Source of the DNA: a virus
DNA: 64,000 nt
IMG/VR virus record: IMGVR_UViG_3300025647_000020
Span: 1 to 64,000 of that record
Reading direction: 5' to 3' (one strand)
The notes beneath the pieces are model-generated. The model did not search any database. It worked only from the letters and a program-made list of their open reading frames with translations, and was not told the DNA's origin. The position numbers and the translations under genes were made by a program. Positions 1 through 60,763 of this stretch are shown piece by piece; the first letter of the stretch is position 1; every line of letters begins with the position of its first letter.

Positions 1-127
1 TATTAATTTACCAACCCAAACTTTAACTAGTTTAACTATTAATGATAATATTTTAACCTATGTTAATGAAAATTTAGATACTATTCCAATAAGTTTACCC
101 CTTTCTAACCCCTCTGTAATTACTAAT
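1..127 (+). repeat. Direct repeat copy 1 (127 bp, exact)
   Basis: Bases 1-127 match bases 445-571 without a mismatch; the offset is 444 bp, exactly 148 codons, so the duplication keeps the reading frame. The left end of the repeat may extend beyond the window. It is an internal duplication in the fibre gene. Confidence 0.9.
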
Positions 128-1309
128 TTACAATTAGTAGGTAAAATAATTGCTAGACATAATAGTGGAACAGGAAATATAAGTCCTAGAAATATTAGAG
201 AAAGTATAACTACATTGGTTAATAGTGGTCTAAACACATATACTTATATGAATGAAGCTGGTGATGTAATGTCGATTAATATAGTACAAACAACAAGTAC
301 ATTAGTTGATAATGGTTTAGGAACTTATACATATACTGATGAATTAGGAAATGAAATAACTTTTAGTACAGGTCAAACATTAACTTCTCTAACAATTTTA
401 GATAGTATTTTAACTTATATTGATGAAAATGGATTTGGTACTCCTATTAATTTACCAACCCAAACTTTAACTAGTTTAACTATTAATGATAATATTTTAA
501 CCTATGTTAATGAAAATTTAGATACTATTCCAATAAGTTTACCCCTTTCTAACCCCTCTGTAATTACTAATACTCAAAATGGGCGTTTAATCGCAGTGCA
601 TAACGATGGCACTGCGGGTATTATTCCCCCAGTTTTTATTAATGAAACAATTACCTCACTTTCAAAGTCAGGTAATAATTTAAATTATATTAATGAGCTT
701 AGAGATACTAATTCTATCACTTTACCTAATATAAATACAGATAATCAAACATTACAAGTTTTTCAAGGTATTCTTAGCATATTAAGAGCAGGTTTTATAC
801 CAATAAGAAATCTTTTTTCTTCAAGGGTATTAAATATAATAAGTGGAAATCCTATATTTTCTCATTATAGTTTTTTAGTTGAAACACCTATCACAGTATT
901 TGAAAAAATTACCACTTTGGCATTATCAGGTAATGATTTAATATACACCGATGAAAATGGGGCAAGTACTACATTAACAATTCCCACCGGAGGTGGTGGT
1001 GATGGAGCTAGAGGTGCTATTTTAAGTACCTCTGATGTAAGTTTTTCAGTTACTGCCCCCAATGGTTATTATGCAATAGTATGGAGTACTGGTCAAGCAT
1101 CTTCAACTGTCACAATAAATGTAAACCCTATCAATGGTGATGTTATAGATATACCTAAATTAATAGATAATAACATAGTAGAGTTTTCTACTGGACAAAT
1201 ATATAATCTTAATGATGGTACATTTCCAGAAACACTTATGTTTTTAACTGATGGGGATATAACAAGATGTATATATGTTGATGGAATTTGGTATTGCAAG
1301 GCAATATAA
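2..1309 (+). CDS. Tail-fibre-like repeat protein, 5' end outside window
   Basis: The reading frame is open from base 2, so the gene begins upstream of the window; the TTG at 215 lies inside the frame and is not a convincing start. About 435 residues are visible. They consist of repeats of roughly 25-45 residues of the type T-SLT--DN-LTY-NENG---I-LP, seen at least six times, followed by a Gly-rich linker (GGGGDGA, about nt 990-1010) and a C-terminal domain with SVTAPNGYYAIVWSTGQ, which resembles an Ig/PKD or SprB-type fold. Such TYTYTDE-type repeats are common in fibre-like proteins of Bacteroidota phages (family knowledge). A 127-bp exact in-frame duplication lies inside it. It leads the co-directional fibre cluster. 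The fibre role is inferred from repeats and neighbours; receptor specificity cannot be read. Confidence 0.7.
   Translation: MNLPTQTLTSLTINDNILTYVNENLDTIPISLPLSNPSVITNLQLVGKIIARHNSGTGNISPRNIRESITTLVNSGLNTYTYMNEAGDVMSINIVQTTSTLVDNGLGTYTYTDELGNEITFSTGQTLTSLTILDSILTYIDENGFGTPINLPTQTLTSLTINDNILTYVNENLDTIPISLPLSNPSVITNTQNGRLIAVHNDGTAGIIPPVFINETITSLSKSGNNLNYINELRDTNSITLPNINTDNQTLQVFQGILSILRAGFIPIRNLFSSRVLNIISGNPIFSHYSFLVETPITVFEKITTLALSGNDLIYTDENGASTTLTIPTGGGGDGARGAILSTSDVSFSVTAPNGYYAIVWSTGQASSTVTINVNPINGDVIDIPKLIDNNIVEFSTGQIYNLNDGTFPETLMFLTDGDITRCIYVDGIWYCKAI
445..571 (+). repeat. Direct repeat copy 2 (127 bp, exact)
   Basis: Second copy of the 127-bp unit at bases 1-127. Identity ends at 571/572, where this copy reads ACTCAAAATGGG and the first reads TTACAATTAG. 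The absence of silent changes suggests a recent duplication or gene conversion. Confidence 0.9.
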
Positions 1310-1356: not shown

Positions 1357-2823
1357 ATGGCTAATAAAACACCTTCAATAGATTGGGTAAGAAGAACCAC
1401 AGCTTTAAGTGGTTCTGAAGACCTATTACGTCAAAACCCAATAGGCGATGCTTCCCCTTTTCCTAAAGAAGAACGTATACCTATTAATTTGATAAAAGAC
1501 TATACGTTAACATTTTTACCAGATGATAAATATATTGCGTCTGGTGCCATAGTTGGCAATAATTTAGTTTTAACCCTAACTGATGCCTCAACAGTAAGTA
1601 TTAACATCTCATCTGCATTAACAAACACAACTCTTGTAACTGGTGTTTATAACAGTGGCACAAAAGCATTAGATTTAACTCTTTCTGATGCAACTATTGT
1701 TTCTATTCCAGTAGCATCATTGATTGCAGTATCAACTGATAATACAATTAATGGTGATGGTAATACAACTGCCCTTTCTGTTGTTCCATCTACAACTGCT
1801 GGTAATCAGTTAACCATTGATGGCACTGATGGAAAATTATATGTTGCAGCTTCAGAAAATAGTGGAGCAACTAACTTAACTAATACTCCCGCTGCAACAA
1901 CTGTCACTGTTGCTTCCTCTACTGGTACTAGTACTATTTTAGTAGGTGCTACGACTAGTTTAGCTGGGGTTATGACCGCCGCTGATAAAGTAAAGTTAAC
2001 TGGATTACCAACGACAATTGATGGCTCAGAAACAATATTGACTGCTGGTACTAATGTAACTATAACGGGTACAGGTACAATTAGCACTCCTTATGTTATT
2101 AATGCCGCTGGTGGTGGTGGTGGTGGTGATGACTGGGGAACACAAGTAGTTGTAAGTAACAATACAATGGTAGGCGATGGTACTACTCTTAACCAATTAG
2201 GGGTAGATACTACTGTTATTGCCGAACTTTCGGTAGTAACTCCAACAATTATTTTAGCAGATAATTTATCTATGGCAATGGGTATTGCCACAAACGCAGA
2301 TGACTTAGGAACTTTTACAGGTAGTATTATTACTAATAATGCAACTGTAAAGGGAGCAATGCAAGAATTAGAAACTGCAATCGAAACAGTTCCTACCTAT
2401 AAATGGTATACCACTATTGACAAAATTTCTTTATATGCTACTGCCAATCCAACCACTTGGATTAGTCAAGTATTAATAGGAGAATATACAATAACAGTGC
2501 CAATAGGCCAAAGTTTAGATAGGATTGCCTATTTATCAGAAATAGGTATTAATCGTGAAAGTGGAACAAACGAGACAATTTTTCATATTAATACAAGTGC
2601 TACGGCAAATACTAATACAAATATGCAAAATTCATTTACCCCAAGCATATGGATGTCTCCAACTCAAACTGGTGGAGTTGTACCAGTAGGAATTGGAGGT
2701 TCACCAAGTGTTAATGCTCCTGCCCCCAGTGCAGGTATAAGAGATATTACATTACAGGGTATAACAAATATCTCTGAGGGCATAACTAGAATACAAATAA
2801 ACGATATTAGCGTAAAAGTTTAA
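1357..2823 (+). CDS. Tail-fibre-like structural protein
   Basis: A 488-residue protein. The start is set by ATG after an A-rich leader behind the late promoter motif at 1321. The N-terminus (MANKTPSIDWVRRTTALSG) is not hydrophobic, unlike the next three gene products. The body is Thr/Ser/Asn/Val rich with low-complexity beta-type repeats (LTLTDASTVSI, LTLSDATIVSI). It contains VMTAADKVKLTGLP at about residue 205, a variant of the TAADKxKLxGI element common in phage tail fibres (family knowledge), and a GGGGGG linker near residue 250. The C-terminal part is less repetitive and may be a receptor-binding or attachment domain. It is co-directional with the other fibre genes, and late expression is likely. 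Confidence 0.65.
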   Translation: MANKTPSIDWVRRTTALSGSEDLLRQNPIGDASPFPKEERIPINLIKDYTLTFLPDDKYIASGAIVGNNLVLTLTDASTVSINISSALTNTTLVTGVYNSGTKALDLTLSDATIVSIPVASLIAVSTDNTINGDGNTTALSVVPSTTAGNQLTIDGTDGKLYVAASENSGATNLTNTPAATTVTVASSTGTSTILVGATTSLAGVMTAADKVKLTGLPTTIDGSETILTAGTNVTITGTGTISTPYVINAAGGGGGGDDWGTQVVVSNNTMVGDGTTLNQLGVDTTVIAELSVVTPTIILADNLSMAMGIATNADDLGTFTGSIITNNATVKGAMQELETAIETVPTYKWYTTIDKISLYATANPTTWISQVLIGEYTITVPIGQSLDRIAYLSEIGINRESGTNETIFHINTSATANTNTNMQNSFTPSIWMSPTQTGGVVPVGIGGSPSVNAPAPSAGIRDITLQGITNISEGITRIQINDISVKV

Positions 2824-2838
2824 ACAAATTTAATTTTC

Positions 2839-5703
2839 ATGAAACAAATAATATTAATTTTACTTTTAGTGCTAGGTTATTTAGGTTTAATGGCCCAACC
2901 ATTAAAGGCAATAAATAGTTCGGTTAGTGGAAGTAAGCCAACATTTGTAGCTCAAGGCGATATTAGTGCTACAAGTAATCTAGATTCTCAAAGATATACT
3001 ATAACATTGGTAAATCGTTCTGAATTACTGGGGAACTCTTTGTTTATTGCAACAAATTCAGAAATAGGTGATATAATCATTGACGGAAATGGTGGAATTT
3101 ACGAAATAATATCTGGTACAAGTCCAACATTTACTGTTCAACTTTTAAATGACCCGCTTGATTTGCCAGAACCATTCTTTGGTTTTCCTGCCGCTCCAAC
3201 TCCTCCAATTAATATTGCACGGCCAATCGGTCAAGCGGGGCTATTGCCATCTTATGCGTTTTTGGGTTCTGGGCTGGATTCAAGATTGGTATCAATTATT
3301 GATAATTTCAATAAAAATCAAATAGCAGATAATCTAAAAAAAGATTATGTAAGTTATAATATTACTGACGGCAATGGTGTTGTTACAGTTCCAGCTTTAG
3401 AGGAAACAACGATAGTAGGAATTAATGTTACAGGAGCAAGTACTGGGCATACTTTTTTGATGCTTCCAGTACCTAGCATTACGTATGCTGGAAAAGTAGT
3501 TAGAGTATTTGTAACCGACGTTAACGGTACGCATAATGCTTATGTAGCTACTACGGGAGCATTGATACGAAATGTTGGCGGCATAGAAGTAGACAATATT
3601 GTTGTTCCTACTCTGGAAGCTTACACGCTTACTTGTACGGAAGTTAGTACTGGCGCTTTTCGGTGGATTGCTGTTAAAGAATTAGCAAGTGCGGTCGAAA
3701 CAGTGGTAGCCGGAACAAACACAACTGTAGACAACACCGACCCAGCCAACCCAATAGTAAATGTACCAAGCCTGAACGATGCAGATTCCGACCCCACCAA
3801 CGAAATACAAACAGCACCCGAAGTGCCGATAACAGCCATCCTTACCCTACCAGCAGCAACCAACGTGCAAAACGCACTGGAAGAAGCTGGCGCGAACATT
3901 AACGCGCTGGCCGGGCTTATACCAACAGCAGTCAGCGACCTTACCAACGATGTACCCTTTGTGTCTGCTGCAACGCTTACAGATAGCTTACTGGTAGTCC
4001 GCGACAGCATGGCGGCTATTCGTGGGGGTGGTGGAACAGTGAACACGATAACTAGTACTGATGGCAATTTGTCGTTTGACGCTACTGACCCTGCAAATAT
4101 TGTAGCTACGAATAATGCACCAGATCAGACTGTTTCTATTACTGGCGCTGGTAGTGTTGCTGTGACGGGTACTTATCCTAACTTTACGGCGACGGGTAGT
4201 GGGGTGACTGGTAGCGGAACCGTAAATGCCATCCCTGTTTTCACTGGTACTAGCACAATCACTGGCACATCTGCCTTTACATGGGATGGGAACCGTCTTG
4301 TTATGACACCTGCATCGTTATCCAATACTTTTATCCGGGGCGGTAACGGAACATTAACAGGGAACCATAATATTGGAATCGGGGCATCAGTGCTTACTAA
4401 TATTACATCTGGTTTGTATAATATCGGGATCGGATTAACGGCTTTAAATGGGGTTTTAACAGGAATAGGAAATATTGCAATAGGGTTTCAGTCTCAGCAA
4501 AATGGAACATCAGCATCGCATAACGTTTCGATAGGGAATTTTGCGCTATCATCCATTACAACTGGCGCAGAAAACGTAGGTATATGTTTGAATGCACTGC
4601 AAAACAACACGACAGGAAATTTGAACGTGGCAATAGGTCGTAATGCAATATCCTCCGCAGCCACAAGCACCGGGAATTTCGGGCTAGGTTATTTTTCGTT
4701 ATCTTCAATGACCACTGGAGATAATAATATGGGTATAGGAACTTCGGCGGGTAGATATACTGGTACTGGAAATAATACATCCTCTAGTAATTCGATATTT
4801 ATAGGTGCGGAAACGAAACCGCTAGTGAGTGGCCAAACTAATCAAGTTGTAATAGGACACGGAGCTGTTGGTAACGGCAGCAACACGGTAACAATAGGAA
4901 ATACGTCTACTATTGGCACTTACTTGTCAAGCCTTAGAATTACAACCAATACAACGGCGGGACGGGGAATAGGCGTAGAGGGTTATTTGGGCGCAAATAG
5001 TACCACGAAAGCACTAGATTACCACGACGGAACCAGTTTTGGCCGCCTATACCCACACACCGACGTAACCCCAACGAACGGACAAATACCATATTTCAAC
5101 TCCACTACGGGGATGTATGTGCCGACAACGCCAACCTATTTAACTAGCGAGGTGGACGGTAGTACCACCAACGAAATACAAACCCTATCTAACGCAGCAG
5201 GGGCAGGACTCGCCCTAAGCCTTGGCGGTGGCACAGTTGGCCTAATTTCCAGTGATGCGGGAAACACCTTATCGGCTGGCACGGACAACAAGCTGTACAG
5301 TGCAGCAGGTGCGGGAGCAAGTGTAACATACACAGGAACACTGTCTGGTGGCATCTCTACGACAATCTCACTCTATGGCTTCGCACCAGTGTATTCCACT
5401 TCTGGAGGTGTTGTAACGGCGGCAAATACTACCCTTAATACTACGCTTCATCAGTACTATGTGCAAGGGGCCACTGGAAGTATTGTAATTCTTGGTGCTG
5501 GCACAAAACAAGTAACCGCAACTTTCACCTATACAGCAGGAATAACATACTACTTAAATGACGCTGGTGGACTAGCTACGAGCGCAGATGCAGATGGTGA
5601 TGCAATAGATTACGACAGTGCGGTGGTGTATTGCGTAGCAGCACTAGGAGGTAACGAGTATCTAATCAACCTGAAAGACCCGCGTCATTTCGTAAACAAT
5701 TAA
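2839..5703 (+). CDS. Secreted-type fibre/adhesin with YadA-like head repeats
   Basis: A 954-residue protein. Residues 1-23 look like a classic Sec signal peptide: a Lys, a run of Ile/Leu/Val, then LMAQ, the usual Bacteroidota ending. The middle holds NEIQT elements (DADSDPTNEIQT, DGSTTNEIQTL) of the type seen in Bacteroidota fibre proteins. Residues about 500-690 hold repeats such as NIGIGASVL, NIAIGFQS, NVSIGNFAL, NVAIGRNAI and NMGIGTSAG, the pattern of trimeric autotransporter (YadA-type) head repeats, so a trimeric fibre is likely. The C-terminal about 120 residues are non-repetitive and may be a receptor-binding tip. GC is visibly higher from about nt 3150 onward than in the phage core. 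A signal peptide on a fibre-like phage protein is unusual; a secreted or lysogeny-related adhesin is the alternative. Confidence 0.7.
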   Translation: MKQIILILLLVLGYLGLMAQPLKAINSSVSGSKPTFVAQGDISATSNLDSQRYTITLVNRSELLGNSLFIATNSEIGDIIIDGNGGIYEIISGTSPTFTVQLLNDPLDLPEPFFGFPAAPTPPINIARPIGQAGLLPSYAFLGSGLDSRLVSIIDNFNKNQIADNLKKDYVSYNITDGNGVVTVPALEETTIVGINVTGASTGHTFLMLPVPSITYAGKVVRVFVTDVNGTHNAYVATTGALIRNVGGIEVDNIVVPTLEAYTLTCTEVSTGAFRWIAVKELASAVETVVAGTNTTVDNTDPANPIVNVPSLNDADSDPTNEIQTAPEVPITAILTLPAATNVQNALEEAGANINALAGLIPTAVSDLTNDVPFVSAATLTDSLLVVRDSMAAIRGGGGTVNTITSTDGNLSFDATDPANIVATNNAPDQTVSITGAGSVAVTGTYPNFTATGSGVTGSGTVNAIPVFTGTSTITGTSAFTWDGNRLVMTPASLSNTFIRGGNGTLTGNHNIGIGASVLTNITSGLYNIGIGLTALNGVLTGIGNIAIGFQSQQNGTSASHNVSIGNFALSSITTGAENVGICLNALQNNTTGNLNVAIGRNAISSAATSTGNFGLGYFSLSSMTTGDNNMGIGTSAGRYTGTGNNTSSSNSIFIGAETKPLVSGQTNQVVIGHGAVGNGSNTVTIGNTSTIGTYLSSLRITTNTTAGRGIGVEGYLGANSTTKALDYHDGTSFGRLYPHTDVTPTNGQIPYFNSTTGMYVPTTPTYLTSEVDGSTTNEIQTLSNAAGAGLALSLGGGTVGLISSDAGNTLSAGTDNKLYSAAGAGASVTYTGTLSGGISTTISLYGFAPVYSTSGGVVTAANTTLNTTLHQYYVQGATGSIVILGAGTKQVTATFTYTAGITYYLNDAGGLATSADADGDAIDYDSAVVYCVAALGGNEYLINLKDPRHFVNN

Positions 5704-5706
5704 ACA

Positions 5707-6492
5707 ATGAAAAATATACTAATATTGATTTTGCTGTTAATTTCAGCAACAAGTTATGCTCAGATTATTAATGATAATACCGACGTTAATACGTCTGGTA
5801 ATCTACCTAAAGAGGGACTGTTTTGGGACGGGACAAATTGGGTTAACGCTAGAGCGGAAGGCAATATCTTTAGCTATCCTTTTAAGTACTTTTACGAGAA
5901 TGATTTTAGTGAAAATATTACAGGAACAACTGCTTTTAACGCGGGCGTAATAGCCTTTAATTCTGGGGCGTTACGGGTTGTTGGTTCTTCTTCAGCTAAA
6001 GGTGTTTTGATAGGAGGAGCCAAAACGGAGGGAGTGCAATACGTTGCAAAGTTTACACTGTCTGGGGTAGACCCTGTAAATGGGGTGAGGGTTTTTTCAG
6101 AGTGGGCAGACAATATATCTGCTGTGGTGTTTGATGGAACATATACGTTTTATTTCACAGAGCCGACGAACGGGAATGGTGATGAAAGGTTAGGAATTAC
6201 AGCAAATGGGTTAGATACATTTTTCGTAAGCGATTTGTCGATTATGGAGGTTGTGGAGGATAGTGAATTTTACCCGGCTAACGTGATTGACGCTGCTATT
6301 TACAATGAAATAGATGCATCTTTTTTGAATACCGGGTATATATGGAGAAACGACTTTGACCGTAATTTGTCGGGAGTTTCCGTAGTTGGTGCAGCAACAA
6401 GAGTGTTAAACAATACAGGAGGAGTAAATATAACATCTCCATCTGGGGGGCAGGTTGTTGGGTTCGTTCCTCGCCAGCTCGGGTGCCGCTGA
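5707..6492 (+). CDS. Signal-peptide-bearing fibre-cluster protein, frameshifted 3' end
   Basis: 261 residues as read. Residues 1-19 form a second Sec-type signal peptide (MKNILILILLLISATSYAQ). The mature part is beta-rich and Gly/Asn/Val rich, with no family I recognise; the paired stretches around FYENDFSENITGTTAF and WRNDFDRNLSGVSVV suggest a duplicated jelly-roll-like unit. The frame ends abruptly in GFVPRQLGCR just after a run of six G (6445-6450). One fewer G would continue the frame through a sensible GSFLASSGAAETGS segment, so the stop at 6492 is probably not the ancestral end. It starts 3 bases after the previous stop, suggesting one transcript. Confidence 0.6.
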   Translation: MKNILILILLLISATSYAQIINDNTDVNTSGNLPKEGLFWDGTNWVNARAEGNIFSYPFKYFYENDFSENITGTTAFNAGVIAFNSGALRVVGSSSAKGVLIGGAKTEGVQYVAKFTLSGVDPVNGVRVFSEWADNISAVVFDGTYTFYFTEPTNGNGDERLGITANGLDTFFVSDLSIMEVVEDSEFYPANVIDAAIYNEIDASFLNTGYIWRNDFDRNLSGVSVVGAATRVLNNTGGVNITSPSGGQVVGFVPRQLGCR

Positions 6493-6710
6493 AACAGGAA
6501 GCGTATTAATTAGAGGGGATTACGCTGGGAGAGATGAGGTAGTAATAGGAAAAGGAGCAACAGGGCGCGGTCTTAATACAAAGGTCATAGCGATAGGATA
6601 TAATTCGGATGCGACATGGAACAATATTTAAGATACGAGTAAGAGATTCTACTGGTGCAGCAGTAACTTCAGGAACAATAAACATTTCGTGGAACGCACG
6701 AATAAACTAA
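6445..6710 (+). pseudogene. Out-of-frame 3' remnant of the 5707 gene (two shifts)
   Basis: After the G6 tract the coding sense moves to another frame, readable as GSFLASSGAAETGSVLIRGD and on to NSDATWNN, ending at TAA 6629-6631. The sense then moves again, reading FKIRVRDSTGAAVTSGTI and ending in ISWNARIN at TAA 6708-6710. Each change is consistent with one extra base. The peptides have the same Gly/Thr/Val composition as the upstream part, so this is decayed or mis-sequenced coding DNA rather than spacer. Two independent shifts favour a real decaying gene or a low-quality stretch; reads would decide. Confidence 0.6.
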
Positions 6711-6728
6711 CAAATAAATAAACAACTA

Positions 6729-7397
6729 ATGAAAAAAATAATTTTAATCTTATCCTTACTTCCGTTCTTGTGTGCTGCACAAAACGTTGAGGTAATTTCT
6801 TCGGTAACAACTTACTCAGTGTATCAGGACAGCTTGCTGTTGTCAAGCGCCTATCAGATTGTCAACCGAGGACAAGAAGGCATTAACGATACGCTACGTC
6901 TTAATTCTATCGTATCAGATACTGCTTCGGTAGTGTTTTATGAGACAAATACTGCCATCAATGATCTCAACCAGACGGTATCAAAGTTTGTGAATGCTAC
7001 ACCGTTCCGTACAGTACTTTCTGAGTATGCTGCCAAGAAAGCAGTGCTTGCAACATTTAACGTAAATCTTGACGATCGCTTGGTTGCTACGTATGGCTCT
7101 AGCTACTATGGTCGTTATCGTATTGTCGGAGCGACAACTTTTGATGTAGACATTGCGGCTCATCCTACACGTACCGATATGCTTCGGGCTACTGGAACAA
7201 ATGGTGAAGGGAATTTTAACGTTCAAATCTTTGGGGCCAAGATGTTTAAGATCAATCTCCAGGGCGGATACTCTCCTTTTCTGATTCTTGATGGTCGTGG
7301 CGGTGAACGGGTTACTTATCGCAGACCTAGTTTCTTTTTACCAGCTGTCATGTTTCCTGAAGGTGCGGATAACCTAAGAGTTACAAAAATACGCTAA
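6729..7397 (+). CDS. Signal-peptide-bearing protein of the fibre cluster
   Basis: A 222-residue protein, third in a row with a Sec-type signal peptide (MKKIILILSLLPFLCAAQ, residues 1-18; cleavage likely after AAQ or before it). There is no lipobox: the Cys sits before AAQ rather than as a +1 residue with a proper lipobox. The mature part alternates beta-type stretches (NVEVISSVTTYSVYQDSLLL) and ends in a compact Arg-rich domain (GGERVTYRRPSFFLPAVMFP). No family is recognised. It follows the frameshifted gene and has the same elevated GC. A virion or cell-surface role is inferred from position only. Confidence 0.55.
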   Translation: MKKIILILSLLPFLCAAQNVEVISSVTTYSVYQDSLLLSSAYQIVNRGQEGINDTLRLNSIVSDTASVVFYETNTAINDLNQTVSKFVNATPFRTVLSEYAAKKAVLATFNVNLDDRLVATYGSSYYGRYRIVGATTFDVDIAAHPTRTDMLRATGTNGEGNFNVQIFGAKMFKINLQGGYSPFLILDGRGGERVTYRRPSFFLPAVMFPEGADNLRVTKIR

Positions 7398-7475: not shown

Positions 7476-8204
7476 ATGGAACAAATAAATCTAAGTTTAC
7501 AAAAGACAAGCACCATTGATTTAAAAAACATCTCAAGGATTACGTTATATGGTAATTATGTAGGAGATAGATTAAAATTAGTAAACTGGTCAAACACATT
7601 TATAACTTTTAAGGATGGTTTTATTTCCACTACCCACATTGAAGATGCACTTGTCTTTGTGGGTAGTGGGGAAAACTGTGGTGTTATTGCAGAAAATTTC
7701 GTCATTAAAAATGGTGGAATAACATTTTGGGACAAACTAAAAAATGTTGGAATTGCTAATTTTACAATACTATTTCCTCATACGGGAATTAGATTTACAC
7801 AAGATCATTTTCATCAGAAAGTTTCAATTATTAACAACACTATTATTGGTGCATCACATGAGGGCATATATTGCGGCATCTCAAAAGCTACTACTAACCC
7901 TTGCAATTTGATTCTTATTGCAGGAAACAATATATCTACAACAGGGTGGGATTTAATTCAAGTAGGGAACTTTAAAAATACCTATATCACTAATAACATC
8001 ATTAAAGATGGTGAAATAAAAAGAGATGCTGGGCAAGAACATTTTATTACTATTAACCCCAATTCATTAGCTTGGATATGGAATAATCAAATAACTGGTG
8101 ATGGTAAAAAAATAGCTGTTTTAGATGCCAGATGTTTTTTTGAAGCACCTGACAATTATAGTTTTAAAGGTTTTTATTTTAATGATATAATTAGATTACT
8201 TTAA
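7476..8204 (+). CDS. Parallel beta-helix-like protein, possible fibre tip
   Basis: A 242-residue protein without a signal peptide. It has repeated short strand-turn units typical of right-handed parallel beta-helices: FVIKNGGITF, NFTILFPHTGIRF, SIINNTIIGASHEGIYCG, LILIAGNNISTTGWDLI and TYITNNIIKDGEI, with Asn and Gly at turns. Such folds occur in pectate-lyase-like domains and in phage tailspikes that bind or cut surface glycans (family knowledge). No catalytic residues can be assigned by eye, so depolymerase activity is only a possibility. It returns to the low GC of the phage core, unlike the preceding genes. Its last 14 bases overlap the 3' end of the convergent gene at 8191-9324. Confidence 0.55.
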   Translation: MEQINLSLQKTSTIDLKNISRITLYGNYVGDRLKLVNWSNTFITFKDGFISTTHIEDALVFVGSGENCGVIAENFVIKNGGITFWDKLKNVGIANFTILFPHTGIRFTQDHFHQKVSIINNTIIGASHEGIYCGISKATTNPCNLILIAGNNISTTGWDLIQVGNFKNTYITNNIIKDGEIKRDAGQEHFITINPNSLAWIWNNQITGDGKKIAVLDARCFFEAPDNYSFKGFYFNDIIRLL

Positions 8205-9324
8205 AAGGCATTGGACTATAACTTAAAATTTTATTTAAATTTTCAGCCTCACCTGCTTTTCTTTCAAGTTGTTTATCACTTCTTAAATCTGTCAGAAAAT
8301 CTTGTAATTCAGTTTTTAATTCACTAAATTCTTCCTTAGCTTCGGCTAATAAAATATCCCAATCAAGTTCTAATGAATCACCCCCCATGTTAACAAGCTT
8401 ACCTTTAAACTTACCTCTTGCTCTTCCTAAGACTTGTTTGGTATAAGCAGTCAACCATTTTCTTATCCAAGTCTTAGAGAAATGATTTAAATCACAGTAA
8501 TCTTGTTTTGGTAAATCAATTTGTGTTGGTGAATAAATTTTTTCACAGTCTTTTCTACACTCTGCTGCATCTGAATCATTTAAAATGTTGGTATCATAAT
8601 ACTCATACCAAACTTTACACCTATACATATCTCTGTTAAAACTTCTTGTTCTATTATTTTCAGGTAATGAAAATAAGTGTAACAATCTAGTCCCATTCGG
8701 CCCTTTTGTAATACGATATGTTAAATCAGAATTTAACATTCTATCAGTTATACTAAGGTGTGCAGCTCGTAAAATAACATCATGAGCTGGGAACAATGGG
8801 AAAACTCCACCTACACCTGCCCCACCAAATCCAAAACTACCATAGGGAGCTAACCCACTCCCACTAAGACCCATATTACCATAGCCCCATGAAGAAAATA
8901 TAGCTGCATCAATCTGTGAGGGGGTCATAAATAAAACCTTTTTTACTTCTCTACCAGCCGGAATTTGATATACTTGATTACCTTCAACTATATCTACAAA
9001 TCCTTTTTGTAATTCAAATCGGCCACCTCTTGAAGATAAACCAATATCTTCACTATATGCTTGAGCTAATGTTAGTTCATAATCAAAAGAAGCAGTCGTC
9101 AACGACAGACACACATCATTTGATGTAACATTTTTACCAAAAAATGATGAAAATTTATTATTAATTATCCACATGTGCAAATAAGCATAAAAATCATCAA
9201 TTGTCAATCTTAATAATGAACACCAATCCTCATAATTAATTTCTAACTCAAATCTACCCCCAGTTAACAAGATTTTAATATCTTGATATAGACATTTTAA
9301 TTCTTCTGAACAATTGGTTTCCAT
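8191..9324 (-). CDS. Putative virion structural protein
   Basis: A 377-residue protein starting 13 bp downstream of a late promoter motif (9338-9347, minus), which suggests a structural role. A Gly/Phe-rich low-complexity stretch at about residues 145-172 (SSWGYGNMGLSGSGLAPYGS and following) precedes a more regular region with DVILRAAHLSITDRML and later WIRKWLTAYTKQVLGRARGKF, followed by a helical Glu/Lys-rich C-terminus. The K-x-LGR-RGKF type segment recalls conserved structural proteins of marine T4-like phages, but I cannot name the family with certainty. Neck or head-tail connector is a guess. It converges on the fibre cluster. Confidence 0.5.
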   Translation of the reverse strand: METNCSEELKCLYQDIKILLTGGRFELEINYEDWCSLLRLTIDDFYAYLHMWIINNKFSSFFGKNVTSNDVCLSLTTASFDYELTLAQAYSEDIGLSSRGGRFELQKGFVDIVEGNQVYQIPAGREVKKVLFMTPSQIDAAIFSSWGYGNMGLSGSGLAPYGSFGFGGAGVGGVFPLFPAHDVILRAAHLSITDRMLNSDLTYRITKGPNGTRLLHLFSLPENNRTRSFNRDMYRCKVWYEYYDTNILNDSDAAECRKDCEKIYSPTQIDLPKQDYCDLNHFSKTWIRKWLTAYTKQVLGRARGKFKGKLVNMGGDSLELDWDILLAEAKEEFSELKTELQDFLTDLRSDKQLERKAGEAENLNKILSYSPMPFKVI

Positions 9325-59056: not shown

Positions 59057-60763
59057 ATGGTTAATCATTTAACAGGATTAAACAAATCTTTTATACCGAC
59101 CGATAATCTTTTAGTAGAAAAATACAGTAATTATTCTGAACATGATAAATTTGGGCAGTATGATAATTATAACTTCTTATTAGAAAAGACTGAACCTGAA
59201 AAGGAACAATTAAGTTTGCTTTTAGAGAATGTGTCAGGAAATGTGTCAGGTGTTTTCGCTTCTATTGCATTTCCACTTATTAAGCGTACTTTTGATAATA
59301 TCATATCAAAAAGCCTAGTTACATTTTACCCAATTGATAAAGCATCAAGTAAAATTTTCTTTTTTTATCCTAAAGTATCATCTCGCAGAGAAAGCGGTGG
59401 TAAGCAAATTCACATAGAAAATACAAGTGATTATAAATGTTTAGGATTAAATTGCCCTGAGCCTTTTGTGGAAAGCTGTAAATCATTTTACGATCAGCTT
59501 TATAATGATTCTTTTTATGATCAATCTAAAGGAGCGTATGAAGTTATAGTTGCTACTGGGACTCCTTTTTCATTTGATGCAGATAGTTGTATAGTACCTT
59601 ATACAGATGTCACCTCACAAGATAATACTATTAGAGCCATTGGTTTTAAAATAACTGGATTAAATAACAAGCCAGTCTTTAGTAATGGCAGAGGAAATGA
59701 AATAGCTGTTGAAGAATTTATTACATCTTTTAGAGTTATAAACTCTGGTGCTCCTATTGTTGATTCATCTGATAATGTAATATATCAAACAGGTGATGAA
59801 GTTAAGGGAAGATTTTTCGCACAAAAATATGGGGATAGTATTGTACATGTTGATGATTTATGCGATGAAAATGGGTATATTTTATATGAAATTGATTTAA
59901 AACATCCTGTTAGTTCTGGCAATCCAACAACATATGATGGATATGTTGGAGTTTTACCTAACGTTAATATTTCTTCAAATTTTACATTTACTTGGAAACG
60001 ATATGATACCCTAGAAAATAATGGACAAATTAGTGAATATGGTTTTGATTTACGTGGTATAGATTTACAAGTTGTTGATCGAATGACTAGAGCGATATGG
60101 TCACCACAACTTCAAATGGATTTACAAGCATATCAAAATATTAACGCTAATAAAGAATTTATTAATTCTATGTCGCAGCAAATTGCCTTAGAAATTGATA
60201 GAGAGATTTTACTTGATTTAAAAAACGCTGCGCCTTGGGCATTAAGATTTGATTATTTAGGATGGCAAAATACCACTCAAACTTACAATCAAGAGTTATG
60301 GAACAAAAAATTATTCGACAAGATTAATGAGGTTTCAGCACAAATACATAAAACGACTAATTGTGGTGGAGCAAATTGGGTTGTTCTTAGTCCTGAAGCT
60401 TCTGCTCTGTTCCCTAATTTAAGCATTTTAAGAGAGGGAGAGACACTTACAGAAAAAGATAGGTACAACATAGGTCTAAAGAGAGTAGGAACCTTAGGAG
60501 GGAGATATGACGTATTTATTGATGCTTTTGCTAAACCTAATGATATACTTATTGGGTTTAAACCAGAATCATTGACAAATGTGGGGTATATTTATGCACC
60601 ATATGTTTTAGCACAACCAAGTGTTCCTGTTATGAATCCAAATAATTTCTCTATAAATCAGATGTTAATGACTAGATATGCAAAGAAATTTACTAATAGC
60701 AAGATGTATGGGAAAATTTACGTAGATAATATACCTACATTTAATACATTTGAAAGTCGATAA
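59057..60763 (+). CDS. Major capsid protein, gp23-like
   Basis: 568 residues (T4 gp23 is 521). Near the N-terminus SGVFASIAFPLIKRTFDNII SKSLVTFYPI matches the P-L-v-r-vf-nlia-elvsvqPm region of gp23-type capsid proteins. RMTRAIWSPQLQMDLQAYQN INANKEF and LEIDREILLDLKNA match the ---ra-----s-el-qdl-a---ld-e-el-------e---eInrevl segment. The C-terminal domain has VVLSPEASALFPNLSI, VYIDAFAKPNDILIGFKP-type and FSINQMLMTRYAKKFTNSKM, all usual in this family. Late promoter 12 bp upstream. The two-component genes follow at 11 bp. Confidence 0.9.
   Translation: MVNHLTGLNKSFIPTDNLLVEKYSNYSEHDKFGQYDNYNFLLEKTEPEKEQLSLLLENVSGNVSGVFASIAFPLIKRTFDNIISKSLVTFYPIDKASSKIFFFYPKVSSRRESGGKQIHIENTSDYKCLGLNCPEPFVESCKSFYDQLYNDSFYDQSKGAYEVIVATGTPFSFDADSCIVPYTDVTSQDNTIRAIGFKITGLNNKPVFSNGRGNEIAVEEFITSFRVINSGAPIVDSSDNVIYQTGDEVKGRFFAQKYGDSIVHVDDLCDENGYILYEIDLKHPVSSGNPTTYDGYVGVLPNVNISSNFTFTWKRYDTLENNGQISEYGFDLRGIDLQVVDRMTRAIWSPQLQMDLQAYQNINANKEFINSMSQQIALEIDREILLDLKNAAPWALRFDYLGWQNTTQTYNQELWNKKLFDKINEVSAQIHKTTNCGGANWVVLSPEASALFPNLSILREGETLTEKDRYNIGLKRVGTLGGRYDVFIDAFAKPNDILIGFKPESLTNVGYIYAPYVLAQPSVPVMNPNNFSINQMLMTRYAKKFTNSKMYGKIYVDNIPTFNTFESR

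Follow-up and report, generated by a model that had tools for sequence, protein, structure and literature searches.

Signal-bearing genes in the fibre locus of a T4-related phage: a possible acquired module of Sec-exported virion adhesins

Tailed phages are taught as assembling wholly in the cytoplasm. What, then, might a tailed phage do with fibre-locus genes that begin with export signals? The question is raised by a 64,000-base stretch of DNA (the window), positions 1-64000 of the 92,950-base IMG/VR virus record IMGVR_UViG_3300025647_000020, in which three successive genes starting at 2839, 5707 and 6729 carry predicted Sec signal peptides of the type used by Bacteroidota. A preliminary description of this locus took such signals to speak against virion proteins, and proposed that the products are exported to the host surface, for example to mask receptors, or that they descend from recently captured host adhesins. 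We favour a different explanation, to which we give about an even chance: together the genes would form a module, acquired from elsewhere, that encodes virion adhesins exported by Sec, with the 5707 gene frameshifted.

In Bacteroidota, cleavage by signal peptidase I (SPI) exposes a glutamine that is then cyclised, and ~71% of the SPI substrates of the phylum comply with this Q-rule (PMC10653852). We detected signals with a heuristic based on n-region charge, h-region hydrophobicity and the cleavage site, rather than with SignalP. The signal-peptide prediction that the preliminary description had suggested as a check, run in this way, returned signals on all three genes, and the open reading frames (ORFs) lie where they had been placed. 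Each fits the Sec/SPI Q-rule, with a basic n-region, a hydrophobic core, small residues at -3 and -1, and Q at +1. By the same heuristic, Q-rule signals occur in 8 of the 184 non-overlapping ORFs counted for the phage species and in none of 293 overlapping spurious ORFs; three of the eight signal-bearing ORFs being adjacent is seen in ~1% of label shuffles. Cleavage and a pyroglutamate N-terminus are predicted for the window proteins. The features concerned are as follows, with GC3 denoting third-position GC.

2839..5703, + strand: signal-bearing fibre gene 1, 954 residues; Q-rule signal, repeats; GC3 0.333
2839..2895, + strand: predicted signal peptide MKQIILILLLVLGYLGLMA, then QPLK; cut after residue 19 (sequence, heuristic)
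4369..4770, + strand: repeat region of the 2839 gene, period 17 residues, like phage tail fibres/spikes
5707..6492, + strand: signal-bearing gene 2, 261 residues, interrupted ORF; Q-rule signal; GC3 0.359
5707..5760, + strand: predicted signal peptide MKNILILILLLISATSYA, then QIIN (sequence, heuristic)
6446..6712, + strand: apparent continuation of the 5707 gene in two further frames, with a repeat-like stretch (VVIGKGA...IAIGYNSDA)
6729..7397, + strand: signal-bearing gene 3, 222 residues, without detectable relatives; Q-rule signal; GC3 0.363
6729..6779, + strand: predicted signal peptide MKKIILILSLLPFLCAA, then QNVE (sequence, heuristic)

The premise that a signal peptide excludes a virion role fails, because signal-bearing distal fibres of four cultured marine Cellulophaga phages are annotated as virion proteins from tandem mass spectrometry (MS/MS). 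Sec signals start phi10:1 gp091-095, phi19:1 gp101-104, phi39:1 gp25-26 and phi18:3 gp085-087, and the preceding tail genes have none. Thirteen of these 14 distal fibre or lyase genes are annotated as virion proteins with experimental MS/MS evidence (phi10:1 gp091-094, phi19:1 gp101-104, phi39:1 gp25-26 and phi18:3 gp085-087); the proteomics behind the records is said to be that of Holmfeldt et al. 2013. For phi10:1 and phi39:1 taken together, we counted by hand, over the whole of phi39:1 and the first 50 kb of the 53.7 kb of phi10:1, 6 of 7 distal genes with the MS/MS virion note versus 0 of 13 other signal-peptide-like genes (Fisher p 0.0002), with phi39:1 gp17 (structural) left out because we judged its heuristic signal to be spurious. 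This difference speaks against simple contamination of virions by exported proteins. The layout is the same in Nekkels, Ingeline, phi19:3, phi46:3 and phi13:2. Across the signal-bearing genes that were read, Q is at +1 in 32 of 34 by hand count, with the proviso that cassettes are shared, so the genes are not independent.

One leader from these phages could be followed across families. The 20-codon sequence MKKTIYILSILLLTISGVSA, followed by QTVIK, is present in both Assiduviridae siphoviruses and Pachyviridae podoviruses, in six DNA versions that have 1-7 synonymous differences and zero amino-acid changes; judged by this pattern, the leader is under purifying selection. Proteins of phi10:1, phi18:3 and Nekkels have their first 118-132 residues in common, leader included, and differ in their C-terminal parts. 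In phi17:2, phi4:1 and phi14:2 the lyase part alone (from residue ~119) is found, within bigger proteins, and the leader is absent from the lyase proteins of phi17:2 and phi14:2, the two that were read. A shared N-terminus on differing C-terminal parts suggests that the leader and N-terminal domain act as a mobile attachment module. We also observed, for the gene at L025:44100-46433 and its homologues, that the leader and an N-terminal domain of ~100 residues have been swapped between lyase and non-lyase tailspikes, and between siphoviruses and podoviruses.

The composition of the three window genes sets them apart from the rest of the phage. Their third-position GC values (0.33, 0.36 and 0.36) hold ranks 1-3 of 140 genes, and the remaining genes average 0.195 (s.d. 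0.039, maximum 0.296). The cassette has sharp borders at 2839 and 7397, since the flanking genes are native in composition:

2..1309, + strand: proximal fibre-type gene (ORF), start missing because the record begins inside the gene; GC3 0.115
1357..2823, + strand: fibre/virion structural gene without signal peptide; phrog_24595; GC3 0.174
7476..8204, + strand: downstream gene of native composition, lacking a signal peptide; GC3 0.21

These values point to an acquired cassette, and the suggestion of recent capture looks sound in this respect. Two more contigs (55 and 133 kb) belong to this phage species; where compared, they are identical to the window from 7746 on, and both end exactly at 7746, inside gene 7476-8204; the 2839 gene has no match in either. 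This shared contig edge suggests that the sequence left of 7746 varies among strains. The foreign composition left of 7746 could fit a chimeric assembly as well; we think this unlikely, given that gene 7476-8204 crosses 7746 in frame. As to the donor, one limited scan of genome contigs found no Bacteroidota homologue of 2839, its only return being a weak 64-residue match in Longicatena, and a plasmid search gave a single match, to a Bacillus tail-fibre-domain protein. A flavobacterial phage of higher GC would be as good a donor as the host.

The genes differ in how far they can be called fibre genes. Gene 2-1309 has internal repeats and no signal peptide in its visible part, and the product of 1357-2823 matches the virion structural family phrog_24595 (E 6e-7) and, by tblastn, cyanophage tail fibres. 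Spacing from there on is operon-like, with 15 nt between 2823 and 2839 and 3 nt between 5703 and 5707; a promoter and terminator scan gave a result no better than shuffles. The 2839 product has ~17-residue repeats at 511-640, plus NEIQT linkers; the repeat, N-[IVFM]-x-[IL]-[GC], recurs with an exact 17-residue period at 511, 528, 545, 562, 579, 596, 613 and 630. These repeats had been described as YadA-like head repeats, a label that we replace: they match phage tail-fibre and tail-spike families, and Pfam gave no YadA match at E 0.1. No solved relative of 2839 was found, nor any relative of 2839 or 6729 in IMG/VR, and searches of annotated phages likewise gave none for 5707 and 6729. The ORF 5707-6492 is not the whole gene, as two apparent +1 frameshifts within ~170 nt, at ~6446-6470 (at a G6 run) and at ~6615-6632, carry the reading on, first through ...SFLASSGAAETGSVLIRGDYAGRDEVVIGKGATGRGLNTKVIAIGYNSDATWNN in the next frame and then through IFKIRVRDSTGAAVTSGTINISWNARIN in the third, to about 6710. 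The frameshifts may be either decay or a sequencing or assembly error. Against fibre and spike families, 5707 gave only phrog_29773, a weak match (E 0.015), and an AlphaFold model of 6729 made without an alignment (pLDDT 31) was of no use. Of the three proteins that had been placed together in a fibre cluster, 2839 has the support of its fibre and spike matches; the fibre label is tentative for 5707, on one repeat-like stretch in a shifted frame, and for 6729, on position only.

In gene content this is a T4-related myovirus. For the major head protein (59057-60763), matches were obtained to phrog_138 (E 1e-35) and, by tblastn, to T4-like phages, and distant relatives with a set of shared genes are present in IMG/VR. 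The head protein, two of these relatives (G006 and G008), a BT4734-like_N domain and the Q-rule signals all fit a T4-related phage of Bacteroidota; the BT4734-like domain and the signal peptides point to a Bacteroidota host. We found no terminase by tblastn in the fetched stretches of the species. Next to the fibre locus, the window has an adaptor-like gene (8191-9324), whose counterpart in a 64% identical relative (L005:8265-11080) precedes the terminase; where the relative has its terminase, the window has the fibre locus, on the opposite strand. Q-rule signals also occur elsewhere in these genomes. At record positions 73836-76085 (L002:10836-13085) this T4-type phage encodes a protease predicted to be secreted, a 749-residue reprolysin-like (M12) metalloprotease that carries such a signal and has a DUF3244-like C-terminus. 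Four more Q-rule ORFs of 65-231 residues are scattered over the record and the G003 contig (86152, 98709, 103299 and 108065), and in the related phage G006 the gene of a 697-residue protein with a Q-rule signal (G006:80621-82714) adjoins that of the major head protein.

A Sec signal alone delivers a protein to the periplasm. Pfam and NCBIfam searches found no C-terminal sorting domain of the type IX secretion system (T9SS) on any of the three, and no Por_Secre_tail in the record; a lipobox is absent from all three, the +1 residue being Q and not cysteine. T9SS export and lipoprotein anchoring were therefore ruled out on sequence, and periplasmic release is the only fate predicted. Having neither a T9SS sorting domain nor a lipobox, the proteins have no visible route to surface display, and the proposal of receptor masking at the host surface is not supported.

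Under the explanation that we favour, the genes would be expressed late, alongside the proximal fibre genes, and the adhesins would be made as Sec precursors whose signal peptide carries them across the inner membrane. SPI would cut before the glutamine, and host glutaminyl cyclase would cap it, as in most exported Bacteroidota proteins. The adhesins would then fold and wait in the periplasm until, at lysis, they met virions assembled in the cytoplasm, and would become distal fibres or depolymerases by way of signal-free tail-tip fibre proteins (here putatively those of 2-1309 and 1357-2823). A place in the virion for the window proteins is thus proposed by analogy, and both signal cleavage and attachment outside the cytoplasm would have to occur. 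Several observations weigh against this explanation. The virion status of the Cellulophaga proteins was taken from record annotations and not from primary data. The link between those proteins and the window proteins is one of architecture, as the signal-bearing fibres of the two show no sequence homology: BLASTP gave no phi10:1 match to the window proteins and a single match otherwise, in which 55 residues of 2839 align with a protein of the IMG/VR phage G005 that lacks a signal. An N-terminal domain common to both sets was also considered and rejected, as a profile of 7 N-termini gave no match. Within the cassette, 5707 is interrupted, and 6729 has no similarity to fibre or spike families and no detectable relatives. 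Finally, the fibre genes of the closest relatives of the window phage lack signals, as seen in G006, G008 and Flavobacterium phage immuto; on the simplest reading, the lineage of the window phage acquired the feature.

Might the three proteins instead be morons that act in the host envelope or at its surface, by blocking superinfection, changing adhesion or stripping exopolysaccharide, and not be parts of the virion? There is a precedent in lambda lom, the gene of an exported outer-membrane protein that lies within the tail-fibre region. The export signals appear real, the phage encodes other predicted exported proteins, such as the secreted metalloprotease, and prophages of Porphyromonas gingivalis have Q-rule genes of unknown function (PMC10367356). 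However, a surface anchor, be it a T9SS sorting domain, a lipobox or another, is missing from the three proteins, their genes follow fibre genes with operon-like spacing, and the parallels that have been studied best carry a virion annotation, such that we regard a moron role as unlikely, though deserving of serious attention.

The same virion annotation would suit another alternative, in which the leader is an uncleaved hydrophobic N-terminus for trimerisation or tail docking and not a working export signal; it would also agree with the otherwise cytoplasmic assembly of tailed phages. Yet a small residue followed by Q stands at the predicted site in all but two of the 34 genes counted by hand. 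Such compliance is sensible only if SPI and glutaminyl cyclase act, and a docking peptide would have no reason to comply; hence, we consider this alternative improbable. Similarly improbable, in our judgement, is that the cassette consists of recently captured host surface-protein genes that are decaying and have as yet no phage function. The foreign composition, the two frameshifts in 5707 and the lack of a 2839 match in the species' other contigs, both ending at 7746, all agree with this reading, but the limited scan gave no chromosomal homologue in Bacteroidota, the 2839 repeat best matches phage fibres, and a higher-GC flavobacterial phage serves equally well as donor.

Returning to exported virion adhesins, how widespread are signal-bearing fibres? 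A search of IMG/VR for the linker motif DPTNEIQT identified two further environmental phages: in G004 the motif protein itself has a Q-rule signal, and in G005 there are five Q-rule genes in the fibre region. Fibre signal peptides are absent from the regions read in immuto, phi38:1, phi14:2, phi17:2, phi46:1, phi12:1, Flavobacterium phages 11b and FCL-2, Bacteroides phage B124-14, G006 and G008. We rejected the idea that the trait is general in T4-type Bacteroidota phages, as immuto, G006 and G008 lack it. On the sequences read, signal-bearing fibres recur among Bacteroidota phages in a patchy manner and fall short of a rule. Signal peptides on the lyase-domain proteins of Ingeline and Nekkels have been mentioned in one sentence (PMC8776804); in the open literature that we searched, fibres with signal peptides were nowhere treated as a class. 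Tentatively, and with somewhat less than even confidence, we suggest that, in many tailed phages of Bacteroidota of unrelated types, distal adhesins and depolymerases are synthesised with Sec signals, mature in the periplasm (SPI, pyroglutamate) and are added to virions only at lysis, by way of modular cassettes of signal plus anchor that pass between siphoviruses and podoviruses and that have another sequence form in this T4-type phage. If this is true, tailed phages would have an extracytoplasmic last assembly step. Should adhesins listed as virion proteins have an export signal that is conserved and functional, two options follow for these phages: virion assembly includes export, or a hydrophobic leader serves the structure in some way not yet recognised. 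Annotation practice would change too, in that signal-bearing genes of fibre loci would no longer be taken by default for morons or host genes.

Among known systems, Flavobacterium phage immuto and the IMG/VR phages G006 and G008 resemble the window phage in their T4-type packaging or head genes. The tail spike of immuto has a repeat region like that of 2839 (34% identity), and G006 and G008 have the major head protein in common with the window phage; unlike the window, all three have fibre genes without signal peptides. The phages of Porphyromonas gingivalis (Nixviridae) are alike in having phage genes with Bacteroidota Q-rule signals, and differ in that the description of these genes, of unknown function, mentions neither a fibre cluster nor virion proteins (PMC10367356). 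Likeness in layout is found in the Cellulophaga clusters of phi10:1, phi19:1, Nekkels (Assiduviridae), Ingeline (Duneviridae) and phi39:1, and the Pachyviridae phi18:3, phi19:3, phi46:3 and phi13:2 have the same distal layout of fibre and pectate-lyase genes. The Cellulophaga phages are siphoviruses and podoviruses, whereas the window phage is of T4 type, and the lyase domains are missing from the window cassette. What the window and the Cellulophaga phages have in common is a run of distal fibre-type genes (2-5 in the Cellulophaga phages, mostly adjacent) that bear Q-rule signals and follow signal-free tail genes.

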